From Nitrososphaerales archaeon TH526 (GTDB lineage Archaea; Thermoproteota; Nitrososphaeria; Nitrososphaerales; Nitrososphaeraceae): a stretch of DNA of 18,344 bases. This document shows, in pieces, positions 4,197-14,464 of this stretch. The notes under the pieces are model-generated. The model searched no databases. It saw nothing but the letters and a program-made list of their open reading frames with translations, and had not been told where the DNA came from. The DNA is taken from NCBI GenBank assembly GCA_014523665.1, contig JAATVR010000030.1:1-18344 (forward strand), read 5' to 3'. The translations under genes were made by a program, and so were the position numbers. Within the stretch, counting starts at the first letter, position 1. Every line of letters starts with the position of its first letter.

Positions 4197-4297
4197 GTTA
4201 CGCTGCAATTAATTCCTAAGAGAAGTAACAACGTCTTAAGGTAAGCCAAAAGCATACCTTTTTTGGCGGTCTTTACTAGAAGATACTTATAATTCAA
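4193..4297 (-). other. Short frame repeating the N-terminus of the 2618-3523 gene
   Basis: From a TTG at 4295-4297 this frame reads NYKYLLVKTAKKGMLLAYLK and runs 34 codons to TAA at 4193. The unknown protein encoded at 2618-3523 starts MNYKYLQRNKTLELVM. An 18-bp string (4279-4296) is identical to 3505-3522, and the flanking GGTCTT is shared too. It is best read as the leftover start of a duplicated gene or promoter-proximal segment, not as a working gene. It overlaps the stop of the acetyltransferase pseudogene. Confidence 0.35.
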
Positions 4298-4377
4298 TTG
4301 CGTCAGTTGGCAATAAACCATTCTTGACTAACTCGGAAATTAGGCACATTGCCTGTCCCGTACTCCATTACCGATAG

Positions 4378-5122
4378 CTAGGACATGGCAAAGAGTTTGT
4401 ATAGATTTCCGGTTGTTCTGTTTGTATATTTCCAGTCGTTAACCTGTGGTGTAATCTCAGAAAACCTTTTTCTCAAAATAGGATCTAATGCAAAATAAAC
4501 GTCTTCACCAACGGTAATTTGATCGGCTTCCGTAATGGAGGTTATCTTAGAGGTAATGCTTATACAATATCCAAGTATATCGACTAAAGAAATCTTGTTT
4601 TGTCCATACAATACAACTACATTCTCACCTTCGTCTATTCCTATTTTTACGCTCAGCTCAGGATAATCATATTGATTTAGGATTGGATTAATTCCATTCT
4701 TTATTACATTCAAGATAGACCTAGCGCATTTAACCGAATTTTTACATGCAACGAGTCTGTCAGAACTTGAAGGGAAAAATGCAATAACGGCATCACCGAC
4801 ATACTTCAATACATACCCACCGTGGCTCTGTATTACATATGTCACCTCGTAAGAAAACGCTTATAGTTACGAGTTTGTCACCAGGCAATGTCATGCTCAT
4901 ATTCGTAGAACCGACTAAGTCTACGAACATAATTATGAGGCGTACTTTGGAACTGGCATGATTAAGAAGATATCCTTTGCCATCCTCGAAACTAGTGTCA
5001 TATTCATGTAATCTCTTTAAGGCTTTCCAAACTCGGCTTTGAGTTTGAGTGACAAGTGTTTCTGTATCGCAATCACCCAATTGCGGATTTTCCGATCCGT
5101 AATCGATACCATTAGCCGCCAA
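4378..5122 (-). pseudogene. Class III adenylate/guanylate cyclase, frameshifted
   Basis: Two overlapping frames together make one class III nucleotide cyclase of about 245 residues. The first frame, from TTG 5122, ends its homology at IIMFVDLVGSTNMSMTLPGD and KLVTI. The second carries on with FSYEVTYVIQSHGGYVLKYV then GDAVIAFFP, and later NLYKLFAMS. The two metal-binding Asp residues of the family are present (VDLVGST and GDAVIAFFP), so the catalytic fold was intact before the break. The junction is at about 4853-4864: removing one base there joins VTI to AFSYEV as the family expects. There is no membrane segment or N-terminal sensor domain. Such cyclases are common in Nitrososphaeria. A single shift may be a real mutation, a sequencing error beside the run of four A, or recoding; mutation fits the decayed neighbourhood. 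Confidence 0.8.
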
Positions 5123-5243
5123 GGTGCTTATTTCTAATTGAGTAAGACGGTCATATTACCTTATTCGACTATCTGAAGAATTAGAATCATTATCGTACTG
5201 TGAAAGTATCACGTAGCACTTCCCTCATTCTCGAAAACGATAA

Positions 5244-5257
5244 GGAGAAGCATATAT
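5244..5257 (+). promoter_or_regulatory. BRE/TATA promoter of mqnD, leaderless
   Basis: GGAGAAG followed by CATATAT places a TATA box (ATATAT, 5252-5257) centred about 26 bp before the GTG at 5281, with a purine-rich BRE-like stretch just upstream. At archaeal spacing transcription would begin at or next to the start codon, giving a leaderless mRNA. No Shine-Dalgarno sequence is present between them, which agrees. Confidence 0.6.
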
Positions 5258-5280
5258 GACTCTGATACACTCAACCTTGT

Positions 5281-6114
5281 GTGGTTGAATTAAGATTAGG
5301 ACATACTCCTGACGCTGATGATGCATTCATGTTTTACGGAATTGCATCGGGCAAGGTGAATAATCCTGCATTTGAAATCAAGCATGTAATAGAGGATATC
5401 GAAACCCTCAACAAGAGGGCATTGAATCACGAACTTGACGTCACTGCGATCTCAGCACACGCATATGCTTATCTGAGAAATTATGTGATTTTACACTCTG
5501 GTGCCAGTTTTGGACTTAACTATGGTCCAGTGATTATTTCAAAGAAAAGATTTACAATATCTGAACTCAGTCACACCACGATTGCCATACCAGGAAGAAT
5601 GACCTCAGCGTACTTAATTTCAAGGATTGCATTAGGTAACTATCCTGACACGCAAATGCCTTTTCACAAGATTCCAGGTGCTGTAAAGAATGGAGAAGTG
5701 GAAGCTGGTTTAGTAATCCATGAGGGGCAAATAACCTTTGAGACGTATGGTCTCATAAAGAGTCTAGACCTGGGAAGATGGTGGAGTGGCATCACAAATG
5801 GTCTTGCAGTTCCATTGGGGATAAACGTGGCCAGTTCAAAAACTATGTCAAATTTCCAGATTAAAGAATTTGAAAATTTGTTTAAAGAATCGATCCTCTA
5901 CGGGCTTAACCATTTTGATGACGCATTGGACTATGCCATGACGTATGGAAGAGGTCAGGCCAGGGAGGTGATTGGCAAATTCATAGGAATGTACGTAAAC
6001 AAGCTGACAGTGGATATGGGAACTGAAGGTCTTGAATCTATTCAGAAAATGTTTGACCTAGCATCTAGTAAAGGAATATTAAAGGAAAATATCTCGAATC
6101 TGATTAAGGTTTAG
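5281..6114 (+). CDS. mqnD: 1,4-dihydroxy-6-naphthoate synthase (futalosine menaquinone pathway)
   Basis: 277 residues, starting with GTG. MqnD converts cyclic dehypoxanthine futalosine to 1,4-dihydroxy-6-naphthoate, the last step making the naphthoquinone ring. The fold is the periplasmic-binding-protein type shared with MqnA, but soluble: there is no signal peptide. Visible family marks are LGHTPDADDAFMFYGIASGK at 6-25 (substrate loop), ELDVTAISAHAYAYL at 51-65, GPVIISKKRF at 82-91, EAGLVIHEGQITFETYG at 141-157 and LDLGRWW then GLAVPLG near 162-180. The IHEG motif and the D-L-G-x-W-W string favour MqnD over MqnA. Length is normal. It converges on mqnE with a hairpin between them. The start is set by the leaderless promoter. 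Confidence 0.9.
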   Translation: MVELRLGHTPDADDAFMFYGIASGKVNNPAFEIKHVIEDIETLNKRALNHELDVTAISAHAYAYLRNYVILHSGASFGLNYGPVIISKKRFTISELSHTTIAIPGRMTSAYLISRIALGNYPDTQMPFHKIPGAVKNGEVEAGLVIHEGQITFETYGLIKSLDLGRWWSGITNGLAVPLGINVASSKTMSNFQIKEFENLFKESILYGLNHFDDALDYAMTYGRGQAREVIGKFIGMYVNKLTVDMGTEGLESIQKMFDLASSKGILKENISNLIKV

Positions 6115-6170
6115 TCGAATTATATCAAATGGAATAATTAAGTGGTGTGACACATGAGTATTATTGCAAG

Positions 6171-6205
6171 AGCTTTTGAATATAGTATAAAAACTCTCAA
6201 AAGCT
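6171..6205. terminator. Hairpin between convergent mqnD and mqnE
   Basis: AGCTTTTGA (6171-6179) and TCAAAAGCT (6197-6205) are a perfect 9-bp inverted repeat with a 17-nt loop. It lies 56 bp past the mqnD stop and two bases past the mqnE stop, so it could serve both genes. There is no long T-run beside it on either strand. Archaeal termination usually depends on T-runs, so a role in 3'-end stability is as likely. Confidence 0.45.
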
Positions 6206-6207
6206 AA

Positions 6208-7353
6208 TCAAAAACGTCTGAGAATGTTGAAAAATGTATCCCGTTGCGCAGGTTGTCTATTAATTTCGCCCACTAGATTGATTAGCTCTTCTGTTGAAGT
6301 TACATTGTGTTTTCCTGTTGCTTTGAATATTTCCTCAGAAAACGCTGTCCCGACCAAATCGTTGCCGCCGTAATGAAGAGCGACTTGAGCTAGCTTCTTT
6401 CCAAGGGCTATCCAATATACAGAGATATTGTTTAGCACGTTTGATAGTAGGATCCTTGAGATCGCTATAACTCTCATGTCGTATGTAGATGGACTTTCTC
6501 TCTGAATCATATGTTTCTTTTCCAATTCCGTATTTTCTAGGCTAAATTTTAGCGGGATGAACGTAGTGAAGCCGTTAGTATTCTTGTTTAACTCTCGGAT
6601 CCGAATGATGTGATCAACGATGTGTTCAGGTTTCTCGATATGGCCAAAAAGCATAGTACAATTGCTCCTTAGGCCTATCTCGTGAGCTTGACGAGCAGTA
6701 TCAAGCCATTCCTCTCCGGAGCATTTACCTCTCACAATCAAATTTCTAGCTTGCTCGTGAAAAATTTCTGCACCACCCCCTGGTAATGCGTCCAGCCCAG
6801 AATCCTTCAATCTCCGAAGTACTTCCTTTATGGAATTCTTGGTCAGCTTGGAAATGAAAAAAATCTCAGCTGGTGTGAGTGCTTTTATACATACGTGGGG
6901 GAATTCCTTCTTAATAGATATGATCATGCGTTCATAATAATCCAGCCCCAATTTCGGATGAAAACCTCCAACAATGTGTAATTCTGTGGCTCCCAATTCG
7001 TTCACTGCTACCCTTGCCCTTGTGAGGAGTTGGTCGATGCTAAGGGTATAAGCGTCTGCCTCTTGACCCTTTCTATAAAAAGCACATAATGGGCAACTTG
7101 CGGCGCAGATATTCGTGTAATTGAGATAGTACGAACAAACAAATGTTACTGTATTTCCGCTATTTTTCTTGCGTAAATTATCTGCAGCTGCTCCCAGCAA
7201 AAATAGGTTCTCTTCATTCATGAGTTGCATTCCATCATTAAATGATAGTTCTTCGCCTGCCATCGCCTTCTCGAGTGCAGGGGTCACTTTTCCAATACCT
7301 TTTAGCAATCTATTTGACTTATGTCGGTGAATGTCAATATAAAACCTATGCAA
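6208..7353 (-). CDS. mqnE: Aminofutalosine synthase, radical SAM (menaquinone pathway)
   Basis: 381 residues from TTG 7353. MqnE joins 3-[(1-carboxyvinyl)oxy]benzoate to S-adenosylmethionine to form aminofutalosine, using a [4Fe-4S] cluster. The cluster ligands are Cys83, Cys87 and Cys90 in NYTNICAASCPLCAFYR. MqnE-type signatures follow: ELHIVGGFHPKLGLDYYERM, IKALTPAEIFF, GLDALPGGGAEIF, RSNCTMLFGHIEKPEHIVDH and YWIALGKKLAQVALHYGGND. HIVGG and LFGHIE fit MqnE better than MqnC (compare the paralogue at 7602). The end, RDTFFNILRRF, is also typical. The usual enzyme is about 360-390 residues. The start is uncertain: TTG 7353 has no clear Shine-Dalgarno sequence, and an in-frame TTG at 7308 is a second choice. 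It is transcribed away from mqnC, with 248 bp between the two starts. Confidence 0.9.
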   Translation of the reverse strand: MHRFYIDIHRHKSNRLLKGIGKVTPALEKAMAGEELSFNDGMQLMNEENLFLLGAAADNLRKKNSGNTVTFVCSYYLNYTNICAASCPLCAFYRKGQEADAYTLSIDQLLTRARVAVNELGATELHIVGGFHPKLGLDYYERMIISIKKEFPHVCIKALTPAEIFFISKLTKNSIKEVLRRLKDSGLDALPGGGAEIFHEQARNLIVRGKCSGEEWLDTARQAHEIGLRSNCTMLFGHIEKPEHIVDHIIRIRELNKNTNGFTTFIPLKFSLENTELEKKHMIQRESPSTYDMRVIAISRILLSNVLNNISVYWIALGKKLAQVALHYGGNDLVGTAFSEEIFKATGKHNVTSTEELINLVGEINRQPAQRDTFFNILRRF

Positions 7354-7573
7354 AGATCAGCTATCAAATAGGCAGGAAAGTACTTTCATCCAATTGTCAT
7401 GTTTTTCTTTTGTATTCTTCACAGATTGATCTAAAAGAGTAGATTAAGTGCTCGTGAATTGAATGAACTAAATGGTTCTTGTTCATTCCTTGAATTAGAA
7501 GTACTGCAGAAAGCAGGATAATTGTGACAAAAGTATGCCTTTTCTTGGCTCGTCAGCCGTCGGGCTTGTAACG

Positions 7574-7581
7574 AATAAATA
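7574..7581 (+). promoter_or_regulatory. TATA box of mqnC, leaderless
   Basis: AATAAATA is centred about 25 bp before ATG 7602. No ribosome-binding sequence lies between them, so the transcript probably begins at or within a base or two of the ATG. Confidence 0.55.
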
Positions 7582-7601
7582 GCATCAGTAATCCACATAT
7601 C

Positions 7602-8741
7602 ATGTATATATTGAATAGCGTGACCGGGTTTGTTCAGAGCTTGATCAACAAGTCAGATATTTCAGATATTGTATACAACGTTCTAGATGGAGGTCGCCTT
7701 AAATTAGGCGAATATCTCAGACTTTTGGAATCTGACGACATTTATTCTCTTGGTATTTCAGCCAATTATTTGCGCAATAAATTATTCGGGAACGATGCCA
7801 GCTTTGTTAATAATATAATACTCAATTATACCAACGTATGTGTAACCTATTGCAAGTTCTGTGCATTCTATAGACCTCCTGGACATTCAGAATCATACAC
7901 ACTATCCTTAAAACAGATACTCGAGCGCGTAATTGAGGCTAAGGAGAGGTATAGCATCACTCAAATTCTTATTCAAGGTGGTCATAATCCAAATCTTAGG
8001 ATCGAGTATTATGAGGAAGTATTCAGAGCAATAAAAAAGCGTTATCCTGAAATTGGTATCCACGGTCTCTCTGCATCCGAAATAGACATGATAGCGAGAG
8101 TCGAGAGGAGCACCACAAGAGAAATTCTTCATCGATTAAAGTTGGCTGGGCTGGATTCACTCCCCGGTGCTGGTGCAGAGATACTTGACGATAAAGTAAA
8201 ATCAACAATCAGTCCATTGAAAATTAAGACCGATGAATGGTTAAGAATCATGGAGGAAGCTCATAACTTGGGCATCAGGGCTTCCGCTACGATGATGTAT
8301 GGCACAGTTGAGACGACGGAACAGAGGGCGAATCATCTACTCCGAATTGCGAGATTGCAAGAAAAAACGCAGGGTTTTATGTCATTTATACCATGGAGCT
8401 TCGAGCCCAACAAAACTGAAATGCAATCTGATGGCTCTGTGAGATATTCTTCAGGTGGATTAGGATTACTAAAAATGATCGCGATCTCCAGGATAGTCTA
8501 CTACGGCTTGATTGATCATTTGCAGTCTTCATGGCTAACCAACGGTATAGGTATGGCCCAGCTGGCCTTGAATTATGGGGCAGATGATTTCGGAGGGACA
8601 CTTATCGGAGAAGAAGTTGTTAGCGCTACAGGGGCAAGGTCCACAGAATTAACCGCAAGCAAGATTATAGAGTCCATAAGGCAGATAGGGTCTAGACCAT
8701 GCGAAAGAGACAACTACTATAACATAATTAGGTACTTTTGA
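7602..8741 (+). CDS. mqnC: Cyclic dehypoxanthine futalosine synthase, radical SAM (menaquinone pathway)
   Basis: 379 residues from ATG. MqnC is the radical-SAM cyclase that turns dehypoxanthine futalosine into its cyclic form, the substrate of MqnD. The cluster motif is Cys80, Cys84 and Cys87 in LNYTNVCVTYCKFCAFYRPP. Then come QILIQGGHNPNLRIEYYEEV, IHGLSASEID, GLDSLPGAGAEIL, RASATMMYGTVETTEQRANH and GFMSFIPWSFEPNKTEM. QGG..P.L and the FIPW string are MqnC features, which separates it from the divergent paralogue mqnE. The C-terminus RDNYYNIIRYF resembles that of MqnE, as expected for sister families. Both MqnE and MqnC read as intact. Promoter and short spacing indicate its own leaderless transcript. 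Confidence 0.9.
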   Translation: MYILNSVTGFVQSLINKSDISDIVYNVLDGGRLKLGEYLRLLESDDIYSLGISANYLRNKLFGNDASFVNNIILNYTNVCVTYCKFCAFYRPPGHSESYTLSLKQILERVIEAKERYSITQILIQGGHNPNLRIEYYEEVFRAIKKRYPEIGIHGLSASEIDMIARVERSTTREILHRLKLAGLDSLPGAGAEILDDKVKSTISPLKIKTDEWLRIMEEAHNLGIRASATMMYGTVETTEQRANHLLRIARLQEKTQGFMSFIPWSFEPNKTEMQSDGSVRYSSGGLGLLKMIAISRIVYYGLIDHLQSSWLTNGIGMAQLALNYGADDFGGTLIGEEVVSATGARSTELTASKIIESIRQIGSRPCERDNYYNIIRYF

Positions 8742-8865
8742 GTGGCTGTTCCTCTGTCAAGGATTGGGCTACAAAGGATTGTATTTGTAGGATGTAAAAC
8801 AATAAGGGACATATTGACGAAGTCAATCGAGTTAAGACGTTTAGTCAAATAAGCTTAGACGTACC

Positions 8866-8872
8866 TTTAAAT
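8866..8872 (+). promoter_or_regulatory. TATA box of HMG-CoA synthase
   Basis: TTTAAAT lies centred about 31 bp before ATG 8900. At usual archaeal spacing the 5' leader would be only about five bases. No Shine-Dalgarno sequence is visible. Confidence 0.5.
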
Positions 8873-8899
8873 TGTCTATAAAGATCCACTCCTATCATC

Positions 8900-10300
8900 A
8901 TGCCAGTAGGAATCGATGATCTGGCTATTTACGTTCCAAAGCTCTATGTAGATTGTAATGACTTTGCGAAGGCGAGGGGCATTGATCCACACAAGCTAGA
9001 ATACGGAATAGGGATTAGGAAAATGGCTATAGTTGATGTTAATCAAGATCCAGCCTGTATGGCGGCCAACGCCTGCTTAAAGCTAATGGAGAAGAATGGT
9101 TTGCAGCCCCAGGATATAGGGAGGATGTATGTAGCAACTGAATCAGGACTTGACGAATCAAAAGCAATGAATTCGTTTGTGATCGGGATGCTGGAGCAGG
9201 TTTATGGTGAAGGTTCTTTTGAGCATGCAGGTGGAATAGAGTGCAAATTTGCTTGTGTAAGCGGATCTTACGCTCTTTATGATAATGCTAATTGGATACG
9301 TGCCGAAGAAAATAATGGCAAAGCTGCAGTTGTGATTGTAAGTGATATTGCCAAGTACGATATTGGTTCGACGGCTGAATACACGCAGGGAGCCGGCGCA
9401 GTGGCGATGTTGATTAAGGAGAATCCTAGACTATTGGCCTTCGATCAAAAGGTCACGTCAACTATTATTACAAACGAGTATGACTTTTACCGACCATTCG
9501 GAAAAGAAACACCTTTAGTAAATGGGAATTATTCAAACCTATTATATTTGATACAGGTTAGGAAGGCCTTCGATAGTTATAAAGAGAAAGCATTGAGGTA
9601 TGGACTAATCGATCTGAAGGATGGAGAATCTATTACTGATCATATTGATCTAATCAGTGTTCATCTACCGTATGGGCGAATGGGTGAGAAGGCATTGGCG
9701 TATCTCTTAAGACACGAGTGGAGAAATCTACCTAGATGGAAAGAAGTAATAAGGGAAGTAGGAATCGAAGAACCTACTCCAAGGGATCCTAGGGGAACCA
9801 TCGAATCTATCCTGGCGGATACAGAATTTATGAAAGCAGATGAAAAGTTCCGGAAACTGTTTATGCAGACAGCCCTTTATCACGAGGCATTTGAGAAGAA
9901 GATGGCGAGCTCTTTAAAGGCTTCCGAATTGATAGGCAATCTATATACTGCTTCAATGTATATGGGGTTCAGAAGTTCGTTAGAGTTTGAATACAAGAGA
10001 GGAACTGATTTGAATGGCAAAAGGGTAGGCTTCGGTTCGTATGGTAGCGGTAGCAGTGCAATGGTTTTCAGTGGTGTAATTCAACCTTCCTATAAGGAAA
10101 TAGTATCTGCAATGAATCTAGAAGAAGAGATCGGTACTAGAATGAAGGTTTCAATGGACGAATACGAAGGATTGCACAGAGGAATAGGAAGGGGTTTGTT
10201 CGATTCCATCAATCATAGCAATAAGGAATTTGTATTGATCAAAATAGGAGGTAAATTGACCAAAAAAGCCGGATTAAGGGAATATGTCTATACAACGTAG
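8900..10300 (+). CDS. Hydroxymethylglutaryl-CoA synthase
   Basis: 466 residues from ATG. It condenses acetyl-CoA and acetoacetyl-CoA to HMG-CoA, the entry to the mevalonate pathway for archaeal lipids and quinone side chains. The catalytic triad is in place: Glu81 in VATESGLDES, the acyl-carrying Cys119 in GGIECKFACVSGSYAL, and His255 in LISVHLPYGRMGEKALAYLL. YDFYRPFGKETP (194-205) and GSYGSGSSAMVFSG near 383-396 are further family marks. The residues around the Cys differ from the usual NACYGGT. The length is nearer to eukaryotic or bacterial enzymes (about 390-520) than to the roughly 350-residue enzyme of many archaea. The added length includes a helical stretch at about 280-345. It follows mqnC on the same strand after 158 bp but has its own TATA box. 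Confidence 0.9.
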   Translation: MPVGIDDLAIYVPKLYVDCNDFAKARGIDPHKLEYGIGIRKMAIVDVNQDPACMAANACLKLMEKNGLQPQDIGRMYVATESGLDESKAMNSFVIGMLEQVYGEGSFEHAGGIECKFACVSGSYALYDNANWIRAEENNGKAAVVIVSDIAKYDIGSTAEYTQGAGAVAMLIKENPRLLAFDQKVTSTIITNEYDFYRPFGKETPLVNGNYSNLLYLIQVRKAFDSYKEKALRYGLIDLKDGESITDHIDLISVHLPYGRMGEKALAYLLRHEWRNLPRWKEVIREVGIEEPTPRDPRGTIESILADTEFMKADEKFRKLFMQTALYHEAFEKKMASSLKASELIGNLYTASMYMGFRSSLEFEYKRGTDLNGKRVGFGSYGSGSSAMVFSGVIQPSYKEIVSAMNLEEEIGTRMKVSMDEYEGLHRGIGRGLFDSINHSNKEFVLIKIGGKLTKKAGLREYVYTT

Positions 10301-12109: not shown

Positions 12110-12532
12110 CTAATCGGTCTCAATTTCATTTTTAACATTGTCAGCCTTCAACTTATCAGAAAAAGAAACCAACTTACCATGATCCTCGATTTTTATAGTC
12201 GTGTTCATTCTGATATTCAAGCCCATCATACGGAAAAGCGACAACAATTCCCCTCCCGATATTTTCTGTTGTATATCTCCTCTTTCTATTAAGTCGAGTA
12301 TGCGATCCATTATCGCCATGGTCTGTGACGGAAATTGAGATTCAGCTGCTGACAATACTTCATCCCCTCTGTCGTAAATATTTTTGAGAAAAATCTGTTT
12401 CTTTGACTTTTCTAAAGATTTGGATTCATCTTCAATTTTTCGTCGCTTTTCAATGGCAGCAGCTTGCTCTCTCAGCTTTAGCATTTTTCGAGCTTTTATG
12501 ATCTCTAAGTCTGTATCTTCTTCCGACTTCAA
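12110..12532 (-). CDS. PDCD5/TFAR19-family double-stranded DNA-binding protein
   Basis: 140 residues. PDCD5-type proteins are small helical nucleic-acid-binding proteins found across archaea. Here a charged N-terminal helix (LEIIKARKMLKLREQAAAIE and following KRRK) leads into a three-helix core: KSKKQIFLKNIYDRGDEVLS, MAIMDRILDLIERGDIQQKI and GGELLSLFRMMGLNI. The protein ends with TTIKIEDHGKLVSFSDKLK, the basic and turn-rich tail expected for the family. The start codon is TTG at 12530-12532; it overlaps the TGA of rtcB (TTGA), with GGTG about 10 nt upstream as a possible ribosome-binding site. The overlap means it is translated from the rtcB transcript and is probably coupled to it. The exact role is unknown. 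Confidence 0.8.
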   Translation of the reverse strand: MKSEEDTDLEIIKARKMLKLREQAAAIEKRRKIEDESKSLEKSKKQIFLKNIYDRGDEVLSAAESQFPSQTMAIMDRILDLIERGDIQQKISGGELLSLFRMMGLNIRMNTTIKIEDHGKLVSFSDKLKADNVKNEIETD

Positions 12533-14034
12533 CCCTTCATTACACCTAACGGTACCAACCTTGCCACCTTCGTTGCAATTCCAACGGAATGAGAAATACT
12601 AGCGACCCTATCAACGTCTTTGTAGGCATGAGGTGTTTCCTCCACGACACCTTCTTTAGTTAGGGCCTTGAGATAAATACCTTTATCTGTAAGATTATGT
12701 CTAACCTCGTCCAAAGAATAAGTTCGCTTTGCAGCCGATCTTGACATTGTTCTTCCAGCCCCGTGGGCGGTAGAGCCGAAGCTCAAATCAAGGGATTTCT
12801 TATTGCCCAGTAAAATCCAACTTGCAGTTCCCATAGATCCTGGTATGATGACTGGCTGTCCAACGGCGCGATATCTTTCTGATACTTGTGACATTCCGGC
12901 AGGAAATGCCCTGGTCGCGCCTTTACGATGAATCATCAAATCGCGTGTTCCCTCGCCATCGATGTCGTAGCGCTCTACTTTAGCGATGTTGTGAGAGACA
13001 TCATATACTAGTTTCATATCTAGCTCTTGTTCACTCATCCCGAACAGTTTTTCGAATGTCTTTCTAGTCCAATGGGTTATTAATTGCCGATTGCACCAAG
13101 CAAAGTTGAGCGCAGAATACATTGCTTTTCGATAGCTCATTCCTTCCTGAGAGTTATTTGGAACACAAGCTAATTCCCTGTCAACTAGTTTTATTTCGTA
13201 CTTTCTTGAGATACTTTCAGAAAGACGTAGATAATCGCTACATACTTGATGCCCGAAACCTCTGGATCCACAATGAATGAGGATAGTCACTTGGCCTATT
13301 TCATTTAAACCCATAGCAGCAGCAGCCCTCTCATCGAGGATTTTATCTATCTTTTGGATTTCTAGGAAGTGGTTCCCCGAGCCAAGGCTTCCTAGCTGGT
13401 TCATACCTCTTTTCTTAGCGGTCTCTGAAACACTCTCTGGATCAGCTCCATTCATCCTTCCTCCCTCCTCACAAACCTCAGCGTCCTGCTCCCAACCGTA
13501 CCCGTTTTCGATAGTCCATTTCACACCTTCAACGAGAAATTCGTCAAGGCTAGATTTCGTTAATCTAATCGAACCAGTTTTTCCTACGCCAGAAGGAATG
13601 GTTTTAAAGAGTTCATCAACTACCTCCTTGACTCCTCTCTTGGACAGATCTTTTTCAGTTAGGCTTGTACGGATCAGTCTCACACCACAATTAATGTCGT
13701 ATCCGACTCCTCCTGGACTGATGACACCTTCGACCAAATCAGTTGCGGCAACCCCTCCTACAGGAAATCCGTAACCCTCGTGCCCGTCAGGCAGGACCAC
13801 GACATGCTTTTTTACGCCTGGAAGTGTGGCTACATTAGCAGCTTGATCGATCGTTCGATCTGTGACCATCTTGGAAATTAGAAGATCGTCGGAGAAAATG
13901 GTAACTGGAACATTCATTCCTTTTCTTTCATTCTTTTCGAGCCGGAATTCAAACTCATTAACCTTTTGAATCTTATGATTGCCATGTTTAGTAAATAATT
14001 CATTCATCACACAAGCTTCATTGTAGCTTGTCAT
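12529..14034 (-). CDS. rtcB: RNA-splicing ligase RtcB (tRNA ligase)
   Basis: 501 residues. RtcB joins 2',3'-cyclic phosphate and 5'-OH RNA ends using GTP and Mn2+, sealing tRNA exons after splicing. All active-site residues known from the Pyrococcus enzyme can be placed: Asp113 and Cys116 in GVGYDINCGVR, Asn221 and His222 in LGSLGSGNHFLE, His254 in LIHCGSRGFGHQ, His349 in DVSHNIAKVE, and the guanylylated His424 in STAHGAGRTMSRSAAKR. There is no intein. Length is near the archaeal norm of about 480. ATG 14034 is the longest start; ATG at 14007 (MNELFTKHGNH) also fits, and the N-terminal ten residues are not needed by the family. It overlaps the PDCD5-family gene downstream and faces an intron-bearing tRNA gene 104 bp away. 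Confidence 0.96.
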   Translation of the reverse strand: MTSYNEACVMNELFTKHGNHKIQKVNEFEFRLEKNERKGMNVPVTIFSDDLLISKMVTDRTIDQAANVATLPGVKKHVVVLPDGHEGYGFPVGGVAATDLVEGVISPGGVGYDINCGVRLIRTSLTEKDLSKRGVKEVVDELFKTIPSGVGKTGSIRLTKSSLDEFLVEGVKWTIENGYGWEQDAEVCEEGGRMNGADPESVSETAKKRGMNQLGSLGSGNHFLEIQKIDKILDERAAAAMGLNEIGQVTILIHCGSRGFGHQVCSDYLRLSESISRKYEIKLVDRELACVPNNSQEGMSYRKAMYSALNFAWCNRQLITHWTRKTFEKLFGMSEQELDMKLVYDVSHNIAKVERYDIDGEGTRDLMIHRKGATRAFPAGMSQVSERYRAVGQPVIIPGSMGTASWILLGNKKSLDLSFGSTAHGAGRTMSRSAAKRTYSLDEVRHNLTDKGIYLKALTKEGVVEETPHAYKDVDRVASISHSVGIATKVARLVPLGVMKG

Positions 14035-14101
14035 TATAAGCCTTGCTTACCAAACTCCTATCACAGGATACTTGTGAAGAGGATAAACTAGCGTGACATA
14101 G

Positions 14102-14110
14102 AATTAAATA
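14102..14110 (+). promoter_or_regulatory. Putative TATA box of tRNA-Gly
   Basis: AATTAAATA is centred about 33 bp before the first base of the tRNA, giving a predicted start site a few bases upstream of it. It lies in the 104-bp divergent gap shared with rtcB. Confidence 0.45.
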
Positions 14111-14177
14111 GCCATTGTTTCCGAGGCTAAATTGATGTGCGGTCATCGTATAGTTTGGTTAGTACACTGGCCTTCCA

Positions 14178-14198
14178 TGTATCCTAGGATACGAGGTT
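14178..14198 (+). other. tRNA intron 1, canonical position 37/38, 21 nt
   Basis: A strict bulge-helix-bulge can be drawn. The 4-bp central helix pairs CTTC (14172-14175) with GAGG (14193-14196). The 5' bulge is C-A^T (cut after 14177) and the 3' bulge is T-T^A (cut after 14198). The intron hairpin pairs GTATCC (14179-14184) with GGATAC (14187-14192). The anticodon stem forms the outer helix. Confidence 0.9.
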
Positions 14199-14213
14199 AG
14201 CCCGTAACCCGGG

Positions 14214-14243
14214 ACTCGATCTTTTATCAAGATAGGGCGGGAA
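14214..14243 (+). other. tRNA intron 2, non-canonical position 53/54, 30 nt
   Basis: The central helix pairs CCCG (14208-14211) with CGGG (14238-14241). The bulges are G-G^A (cut after 14213) and A-A^T (cut after 14243). The inner stem pairs CTC with GGG and ATCTT (14219-14223) with AAGAT (14229-14233), with one G-A mismatch and loop TTATC. Removal restores T-stem CCGGG and loop TTCAAAT exactly. The outer helix is weak, as in relaxed motifs at such positions. Confidence 0.87.
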
Positions 14244-14464
14244 TTCAAATCCCGGTGACCGCACCAACTATATGAATTCACATTCTAGACCCAATATCAA
14301 CGATATGAGTATCCGTATGGTATACACTATGCTTCCTAATCTGGACCAACTTATGGGGTTGAGAAAAGGCGTCCATCAAGATTTCAACTCTGTTAGCTAA
14401 CGTCCAGTCACTTCCCAATAAATAAAATAGCACTACAATTATGGATTTTTATAGTTACATGCAA

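Follow-up and report, generated by a model that had tools for sequence, protein, structure and literature searches.

The window, as we call the whole 18,344-nt stretch of DNA from a soil archaeon analyzed here, carries a tRNA-Gly(UCC) gene on its forward strand (14139-14263), which opens with GCGGTCA, runs to TGACCGCA and is interrupted twice. Once both introns are removed, a 74-nt tRNA with the anticodon UCC is left. A canonical tRNA is restored in this way, with stems laid out by eye rather than by energy folding. The initial annotation had read the locus as a gene with a 21-nt intron at position 37/38 and a 30-nt intron at 53/54, both with 3-nt bulges and a 4-bp central helix, giving a 74-nt product. 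The sequence and its homologues bear out this reading of the introns, the product and the motif geometry, the 53/54 motif being of a relaxed form, and the thaumarchaeal origin given in that annotation is correct as well. The CCA that follows at 14264-14266 varies within the genus: CTA, CCT, TCA or a contig end is found there in its other four genomes. We therefore let the gene proper end at 14263. The features of the locus are listed in Table 1.

The tRNA gene is divergent from rtcB, which lies upstream across a gap of 104 bp, a link that goes unmentioned in the initial annotation. The two adjoin each other in all five genomes analyzed of the window's genus (g1, G000 to G004); in six other genomes of the family, where both could be placed on one contig, the distance between them is 3.3 kb (G019), 7.5 kb (G030), about 30 kb (G014) or at least 185 kb (G015, G027, and G032). 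Since the adjacency is confined to genus g1 among the genomes compared, it is no more than a lead toward a promoter common to rtcB and the tRNA gene or toward their joint regulation. The gene overlapping the 3' end of rtcB encodes a PDCD5-like product. A second RtcB homologue, about 65% identical, is encoded in the window's genome (G000:C192:1-1017) and in a sister genome (G001:C90:733-2268). Between 5281 and 8741, the window also holds a menaquinone-type gene set, which encodes a VitK2_biosynth protein together with two proteins of the radical-SAM type that have CofH/MqnC regions at the C terminus.

Table 1. Features at the tRNA-Gly(UCC) locus of the window and, in the last line, an island in a relative
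Feature	Position	Strand	Remarks
PDCD5-like dsDNA-binding protein gene	12110..12532	-	PF01984; overlaps rtcB 3' end by 4 bp
rtcB, tRNA-splicing RNA ligase	12529..14034	-	Pfam RtcB, 573 bits
A+T-rich promoter-like element, -39 to -26	14100..14113	+	at the place of the relatives' TTAATA; putative role
Exon 1, positions 1-37	14139..14177	+	read from sequence and homologues
Intron at canonical position 37/38, 21 nt	14178..14198	+	CTTC/GAGG central helix, 3-nt bulges
Exon 2, positions 38-53	14199..14213	+	read from sequence and homologues
T-arm intron at 53/54, 30 nt	14214..14243	+	CCCG/CGGG central helix, 3-nt bulges
Exon 3, positions 54-73	14244..14263	+	in genus g6, the repeat bounding inserted islands
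Palindromic motif TATATGAATTCACATTCT	14269..14286	+	5 nt behind the tRNA; one match with 3 mismatches (expected in the window, 0.04)
G086 island, L299 (G086:C35)	about 4283-9225		DUF2252, chloride channel, 468-aa ORF without Pfam match

Splice motifs and processing of the transcript

Both introns of the window lie in a bulge-helix-bulge (BHB) motif, in which a central helix of 4 bp is flanked by a 3-nt bulge on each side. At 37/38, CTTC (positions 32 to 35) pairs with GAGG, and the bulges are CA^T and TT^A; at 53/54, CCCG (positions 48 to 51) pairs with CGGG, and the bulges are GG^A and AA^T. An intron helix is present in each case as well. The 37/38 intron takes the strict hBHBh' form, with a U28-C42 mismatch in its exon helix. 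By inspection, the 53/54 intron departs from this form, its outer exon helix being reduced to the single pair A46-U55, and we thus claim for it only the relaxed HBh' form, which is named together with hBH in PMC4090602 (in excerpt).

Neither Rfam at its gathering threshold nor ARAGORN, even when introns were permitted, gave a tRNA match in the window, and the fact that ARAGORN and the Rfam tRNA model both overlook this gene is a warning. Energy folding did not recover the motifs either, since neither of them is complete in the top-ranking folds predicted for the unspliced transcript. The best fold has an energy of -47.0 kcal/mol, and in it the CGGG strand of the 53/54 intron pairs with the 3' T-stem strand instead. 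Forcing the 53/54 helices gives -44.1 kcal/mol, forcing the 37/38 central helix -41.8 kcal/mol, and forcing both central helices -40.1 kcal/mol. The same program gives no cloverleaf for the mature tRNA, so that energy folding is weak evidence against the motifs.

With the gene of G029 added, both splice sites are present in 47 of 60 distinct homologous gene sequences, which argues that the motifs are not due to chance. The 59 other genes yield only 13 distinct mature tRNAs, compared to 45 distinct introns at 53/54 (19 to 33 nt) and 51 at 37/38 (15 to 42 nt). With G029 included, the four central pairs are kept in all 46 distinct 53/54 introns and in 51 of 52 distinct 37/38 introns, the sole central-helix mismatch being that of G076. 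All 46 of the former begin with AC, have CGGG at the place of the central helix, and end with GCGGGA followed by A, G, or C. The helices inside the introns are maintained as well. The first five inner pairs at 53/54 are paired in 94.7% of cases versus 80.2% after shuffling, and the four inner pairs at 37/38 in 92.2% versus 64.0%, with none of 2,000 shuffles reaching the observed value in either case; here the 3' arms were exchanged among the 45 and 51 distinct introns, respectively, with relatedness ignored. The intron helices covary. The introns differ widely, the mature tRNAs hardly at all.

The gene is the only tRNA-Gly(UCC) that we found in its genome, where a diverged copy is possible. 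TTAATA or TTTAAT, which resembles the archaeal TATA region, occurs between -48 and -20 in 39 of 46 distinct upstream sequences; the sequences of genus g1, including the window, have AGAA(A/T)TAAATA at that place instead. The genome of the window encodes two tRNA-intron endonuclease paralogues, L111 (185 amino acids) and L112 (215 amino acids). L111 is closest to PDB 3p1z_B, and its residue 40, a lysine, aligns with Lys44 of that chain in a stretch free of gaps. We take 3p1z to be a crenarchaeal heterotetramer and Lys44 to be the lysine of the crenarchaea-specific loop. This loop and its lysine are described as going with relaxed substrates (PMC12397907, in excerpt), and Thaumarchaeota are reported to have alpha2-beta2 endonucleases (PMC4090602, in excerpt). 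L112 is the likely structural partner of L111.

In the transcript, the 37/38 intron can adopt a canonical BHB motif. For the 53/54 intron, a relaxed motif is available, which has the central helix and the intron helix and lacks a stable outer one; a hairpin formed by the intron 3' end and the T-loop strand competes with it. A heterotetrameric endonuclease would cut both introns, and RtcB would join the exons. We infer these steps of transcription, cleavage, and ligation from sequence and conservation.

A decayed or disrupted tRNA pseudogene, with the inserts as neutral debris, would also account for two inserts, for the silence of the tRNA finders and for the U28-C42 mismatch in the mature anticodon stem (14168 and 14203 in the window). 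We give this explanation practically no credence. The same mismatch is found in all 13 distinct mature sequences, including those of two intronless outgroup genes, and the small number of mature sequences next to the many introns described above speaks against decay. Furthermore, a promoter-like element lies upstream, and no other tRNA-Gly(UCC) turned up among 33 tRNA-bearing loci of the sister genome G003, which is 99% complete. This census, run with ARAGORN with introns allowed, comprised 33 regions covering 35 of 40 RF00005 matches, and ARAGORN returned nothing in L225 and L228. Three of the G003 tRNA loci (L220, L227, and L228) are longer than 100 nt. The gene of the window is real, very probably functional, and ordinary for its family.

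Distribution and history of the two introns

Among 70 Nitrososphaeraceae genomes, 50 have a tRNA-Gly(UCC) gene with both introns; the 37/38 intron alone is found in 11, the 53/54 intron alone in 1, and no readable gene in 8. The last are six genomes with no match (G012, G020, G034, G036, G068, and G089) plus G082 and G084, in which tRNA-Gly(CCC) or its 3' end only was matched. The initial annotation had called two introns in one tRNA of a probable mesophilic thaumarchaeon unusual, a view that does not hold: the double intron is the commonest state in the family, and thaumarchaeal tRNAs with several introns have already been published. A 5'-half pattern gave 42 loci in GTDB genome contigs, to which searches of relatives added more. 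The titles of the 42 are mostly Nitrososphaerales, Nitrososphaeraceae, Nitrososphaera, or Nitrosocosmicus, and also include Nitrososphaeria, Nitrosothermus, Nitrosopumilus, Thaumarchaeota, and one "bacterium." At the level of genes, 59 distinct full sequences were obtained, 46 with both introns, 10 with only 37/38, 1 with only 53/54 (L139, from G074), and 2 with neither. The two intronless genes come from outside the family, namely, L037 (G038, of the same order) and L089 (Candidatus Nitrosothermus, Nitrosocaldaceae). These gene counts omit genes with a nonmatching 5' half, such as that of G054 (L038), which is intronless and has an odd 5' end.

A species tree built on RtcB alone was rejected, its deep nodes being open and the outgroup being placed inside. 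Because of this poor resolution, we concatenated RtcB, HMG-CoA synthase, and RpoB from 30 genomes and rooted the tree on G037 (supports are given as SH-aLRT/ultrafast bootstrap). RpoB of G011 is partial, G079 and G081 lack HMG-CoA synthase, and G073 has a long branch (0.346); where RtcB had a reported stop (e.g., in G014 and G079), the longest open piece was used. The Nitrososphaeraceae node is fully supported (100/100). One clade within it (86.7/82) consists of 15 genomes, all of which have both introns. G007, also with both introns, groups with Nitrososphaera (99.7/100) and falls outside it (Nitrososphaera, 99.5/100).

Both introns are kept inside Nitrososphaera in G027, G032, G073, and G085, and G074 has retained the 53/54 intron and lost the other one. 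G015, G075, G077, G079, and G081 form a clade (97.3/99) without the 53/54 intron. G022 lacks it too, with a weakly supported placement (15.2/55). The remaining genomes with only the 37/38 intron (G072, G076, G078, G080, and G083) are outside the three-protein tree, and three of them (G072, G078, and G083) sit in the corresponding 53/54-less clade of the RtcB tree (97/92).

This comparison of the locus in related genomes, by which the initial annotation had proposed to date the T-arm intron, places the gain of the 53/54 intron most simply on the Nitrososphaeraceae stem. In the simplest reading, the intron was then lost once or twice in Nitrososphaera, and the 37/38 intron was lost once. The number of 53/54 losses rests on the weak G022 node, so that two losses or a second gain remain compatible with the tree. 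Independent gains of the 53/54 intron in several lineages are unlikely in our view. Its patchy occurrence in Nitrososphaera, with both introns in four genomes, the 53/54 intron alone in G074 and the 37/38 intron alone in 11, would fit such gains, as would the greatly differing intron bodies. However, the start and end shared by all 46 distinct 53/54 introns argue for one origin, as does the presence of the intron both in G007, the sister to Nitrososphaera, and throughout the other clade.

If the 53/54 intron was gained once and then lost, its exact loss could have used an intronless tRNA-Gly(CCC) as the donor. This gene ends in TAACCCGGGTTCAAATCCCGGTGACCGCA in G007, G022, and G082, as does its 3' end in G084, and these 29 nt are identical to those with which most UCC genes end after splicing. 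G027 has TTCGAAT in the T-loop of its UCC and CCC genes alike. The loss may thus perhaps have occurred through recombination with tRNA-Gly(CCC), whose 3' end is identical in some Nitrososphaera, the conversion route being suggested by these sequences. Against this route, G007 has a CCC paralogue with a matching end yet keeps its 53/54 intron. No second exact copy of exon 3 was found in G015, and in G003, of the window's genus, the 3' end of the CCC gene is different (L207).

Islands bounded by exon 3

In genus g6, insertions were found directly behind the tRNA gene. G024 (L105/L143) has an exact copy of the 20-nt exon 3 on the same strand, 1.65 kb downstream of the intron-bearing gene. In four relatives with an empty site (L079, L083, L093, and L107), a winged-helix gene starts 248 to 266 nt after the tRNA; the same gene follows at 2.06 kb in G024 and at 5.2 kb in G086. 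G086 has a similar right end about 4.9 kb behind its intron-bearing tRNA. Another one adjoins the same winged-helix gene in G088, whose tRNA sits on a separate contig. In both genomes, the exon-3 copy has one mismatch. The shared right end comprises 69 bp, including the exon-3 copy, and is 85 to 88% identical. These g6 relatives thus show two features expected of a tRNA-targeting element, namely, a copy of the tRNA 3' end that bounds the insertion on its far side and, in close relatives, an empty site. The islanded g6 genes, like those of their empty-site relatives, carry both introns.

The G024 insert contains an 87-amino-acid ORF without a Pfam match (L143, 2111-2374; L307, 1404-1667), and its middle (about 690 bp) has relatives, 68 to 79% identical, at other places in nine g6 genomes, among them G024 itself (contig C12) and the empty-site genomes G018, G090, and G092. 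Behind the tRNA of G088, the sequence holds a gene of the aquaporin family, a fragment with an MCM domain, and a FUN14 gene. A motif scan for tyrosine recombinases 3' of the tRNA at 43 loci (0 to 10.9 kb each) gave none, and no recombinase was detected by Pfam among selected ORFs of the G024, G086, and G088 islands, the last being interrupted at contig ends. Elsewhere in the 70 genomes, a second exact match to the exon-3 pattern is part of a tRNA-Gly(CCC) gene (G007, G022, and G027) or of a UCC gene that is present twice or lies at a contig edge (G087, G093, and G026). Downstream of the tRNA in the window (4.1 kb) and in G003 (L108, 6.9 kb), no exon-3-like copy with up to five mismatches was found.

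A palindrome, TATAGGAATTCATATACT, centered around GAATTC, marks many of these sites. Scanning for the 18-mer with up to 4 mismatches, we found it on the tRNA strand, starting 3 to 5 nt after the tRNA, at 19 of 43 loci, including the window. The scan gave 20 other matches in 300 kb, of which nine are the same sites on the other strand, three lie at the two G024 island ends, and eight lie elsewhere. Within g6, the palindrome is present beside the tRNA in the islanded G024, G086, and G088 and absent at the empty sites L079, L083, L093, and L107. An inverted, diverged copy precedes the far-end copy of exon 3 by 9 to 10 nt in G024 and G088. In addition, L322 (G026:C230) and L312 (G063:C101) each harbor, around position 1501, an exon-3 copy with a different first base and the palindrome on both sides, an arrangement like that expected of an attP or of the junction of two islands.

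Fourteen pattern matches were obtained, and those of G024, G088, G026, and G063 are att-like. We rejected the others: the G028 match is the tRNA gene itself, that of G068 looks like the 3' end of another tRNA, those in G006, G090, G087:C68, G018, and G009 lack a Gly exon-3 continuation, and in G061, G069, and G093 the motif is present with exon 3 only in part. A search for an attP in IMG/VR contigs gave no exact match to exon 3 or to the motif plus exon 3. Overall, the palindrome pattern suggests island ends at the tRNA-Gly(UCC) locus across several genera.

These islands bear on the suggestion of the initial annotation that intron gain could protect the gene against integration. As an absolute barrier, this protection is contradicted by the exon-3-bounded insertions in G024, G086, and G088 together with the empty sites in at least four relatives: islands bounded by copies of exon 3 lie beside intron-bearing genes. 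Published thaumarchaeal elements are in agreement with this, since 10 of 39 that target tRNA genes reside in intron-containing ones, and their att sites have a median length of 17 bp (PMC6563490, in excerpt). With its 20 bp, exon 3 alone is therefore long enough, and we infer from the repeats and the empty sites that it can act by itself as an attachment core.

Under the protection hypothesis, which is already in print (Randau and Soll, cited here after PMC4090602 and PMC3293823, both in excerpt), the T-arm intron would owe its gain or its retention to the break that it makes in the att site used by tRNA-targeting integrases, and the T-arm DNA is indeed interrupted by the intron. We nevertheless consider this explanation very unlikely here. 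Not only do published elements enter intron-containing tRNA genes, but insertions adjoin intron-bearing genes in G024 and G086 (with the same far boundary in G088, on another contig). Moreover, the 11 genomes with only the 37/38 intron showed no second exact match to a 19-nt exon-3 pattern apart from the tRNA-Gly(CCC) of G022, a search that misses diverged or shorter scars.

More tentatively, and with considerable doubt, we propose that the intron sets the edge of the att site, the core of the islands being exactly exon 3 and the palindrome TATAGGAATTCATATACT being a putative recombinase binding site. Islands would then enter just 3' of the T-arm intron and leave the gene intact, and the exon-3 core would reflect either an adaptation of the elements to the intron or the culling by the intron of elements with longer cores. 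If so, the locus would be a natural test of intron protection. As for the whole, we are highly confident that the window holds a working tRNA-Gly(UCC) gene with two introns removed by the endonuclease, that the T-arm intron goes back, in the simplest reading, to a gain on the family stem followed by one or two losses in Nitrososphaera, and that it does not bar integration.

Comparison with known systems

Noncanonical tRNA introns are well known from these archaea. tRNAscan-SE 2.0, which has a dedicated model, counted 107 of them in the thaumarchaeal genomes surveyed, and tRNA genes with more than one noncanonical intron are reported for certain species of both Crenarchaeota and Thaumarchaeota (PMC8450103, in excerpt). 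Thaumarchaeal tRNAs with several introns are thus already known, and this gene adds one more. Among the matches listed in a literature search on Nitrososphaera tRNA introns, none was about this tRNA-Gly by its title or the opening of its abstract, and the gene may already be catalogued.

Like the thaumarchaeal tRNA-targeting elements, the islands of genus g6 end, on the far side, in a copy of the tRNA 3' end, have a short core (20 bp), and are integrated on the 3' side (PMC6563490, in excerpt). They differ in that no integrase was found by the scans used and in that the repeat starts at an intron boundary. A link between intron gain and mobile elements has been proposed for Caldiarchaeum, where tRNA-Thr(GGU) has one or two introns beside a mobile element and, in the authors' proposal, integration of an element and recombination brought the intron and scattered a 5' tRNA fragment (PMC3293823, in excerpt). 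As in that case, intron number is polymorphic at a single tRNA locus and an insertion with a tRNA fragment lies nearby. Unlike in Caldiarchaeum, it is a copy of the 3' exon that bounds the insertions here, and islanded and empty-site genes are both doubly interrupted. The locus allows a direct check of the idea that tRNA introns protect, which so far fails as far as an absolute barrier is concerned.

With the archaeal BHB introns of Thermoproteales, Caldiarchaeum, and Thaumarchaeota, the two introns share their motif geometry, their positions in the anticodon loop and the T-arm, the occurrence of more than one intron per gene, and host organisms with alpha2-beta2 endonucleases. What sets them apart is the retention of one pair of sites by a single isoacceptor in most members of a family, together with separate losses of each intron visible within one genus. 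The locus is of value because a noncanonical tRNA intron can be followed here, in a well-sampled family of archaea, from a placed gain through repeated losses.
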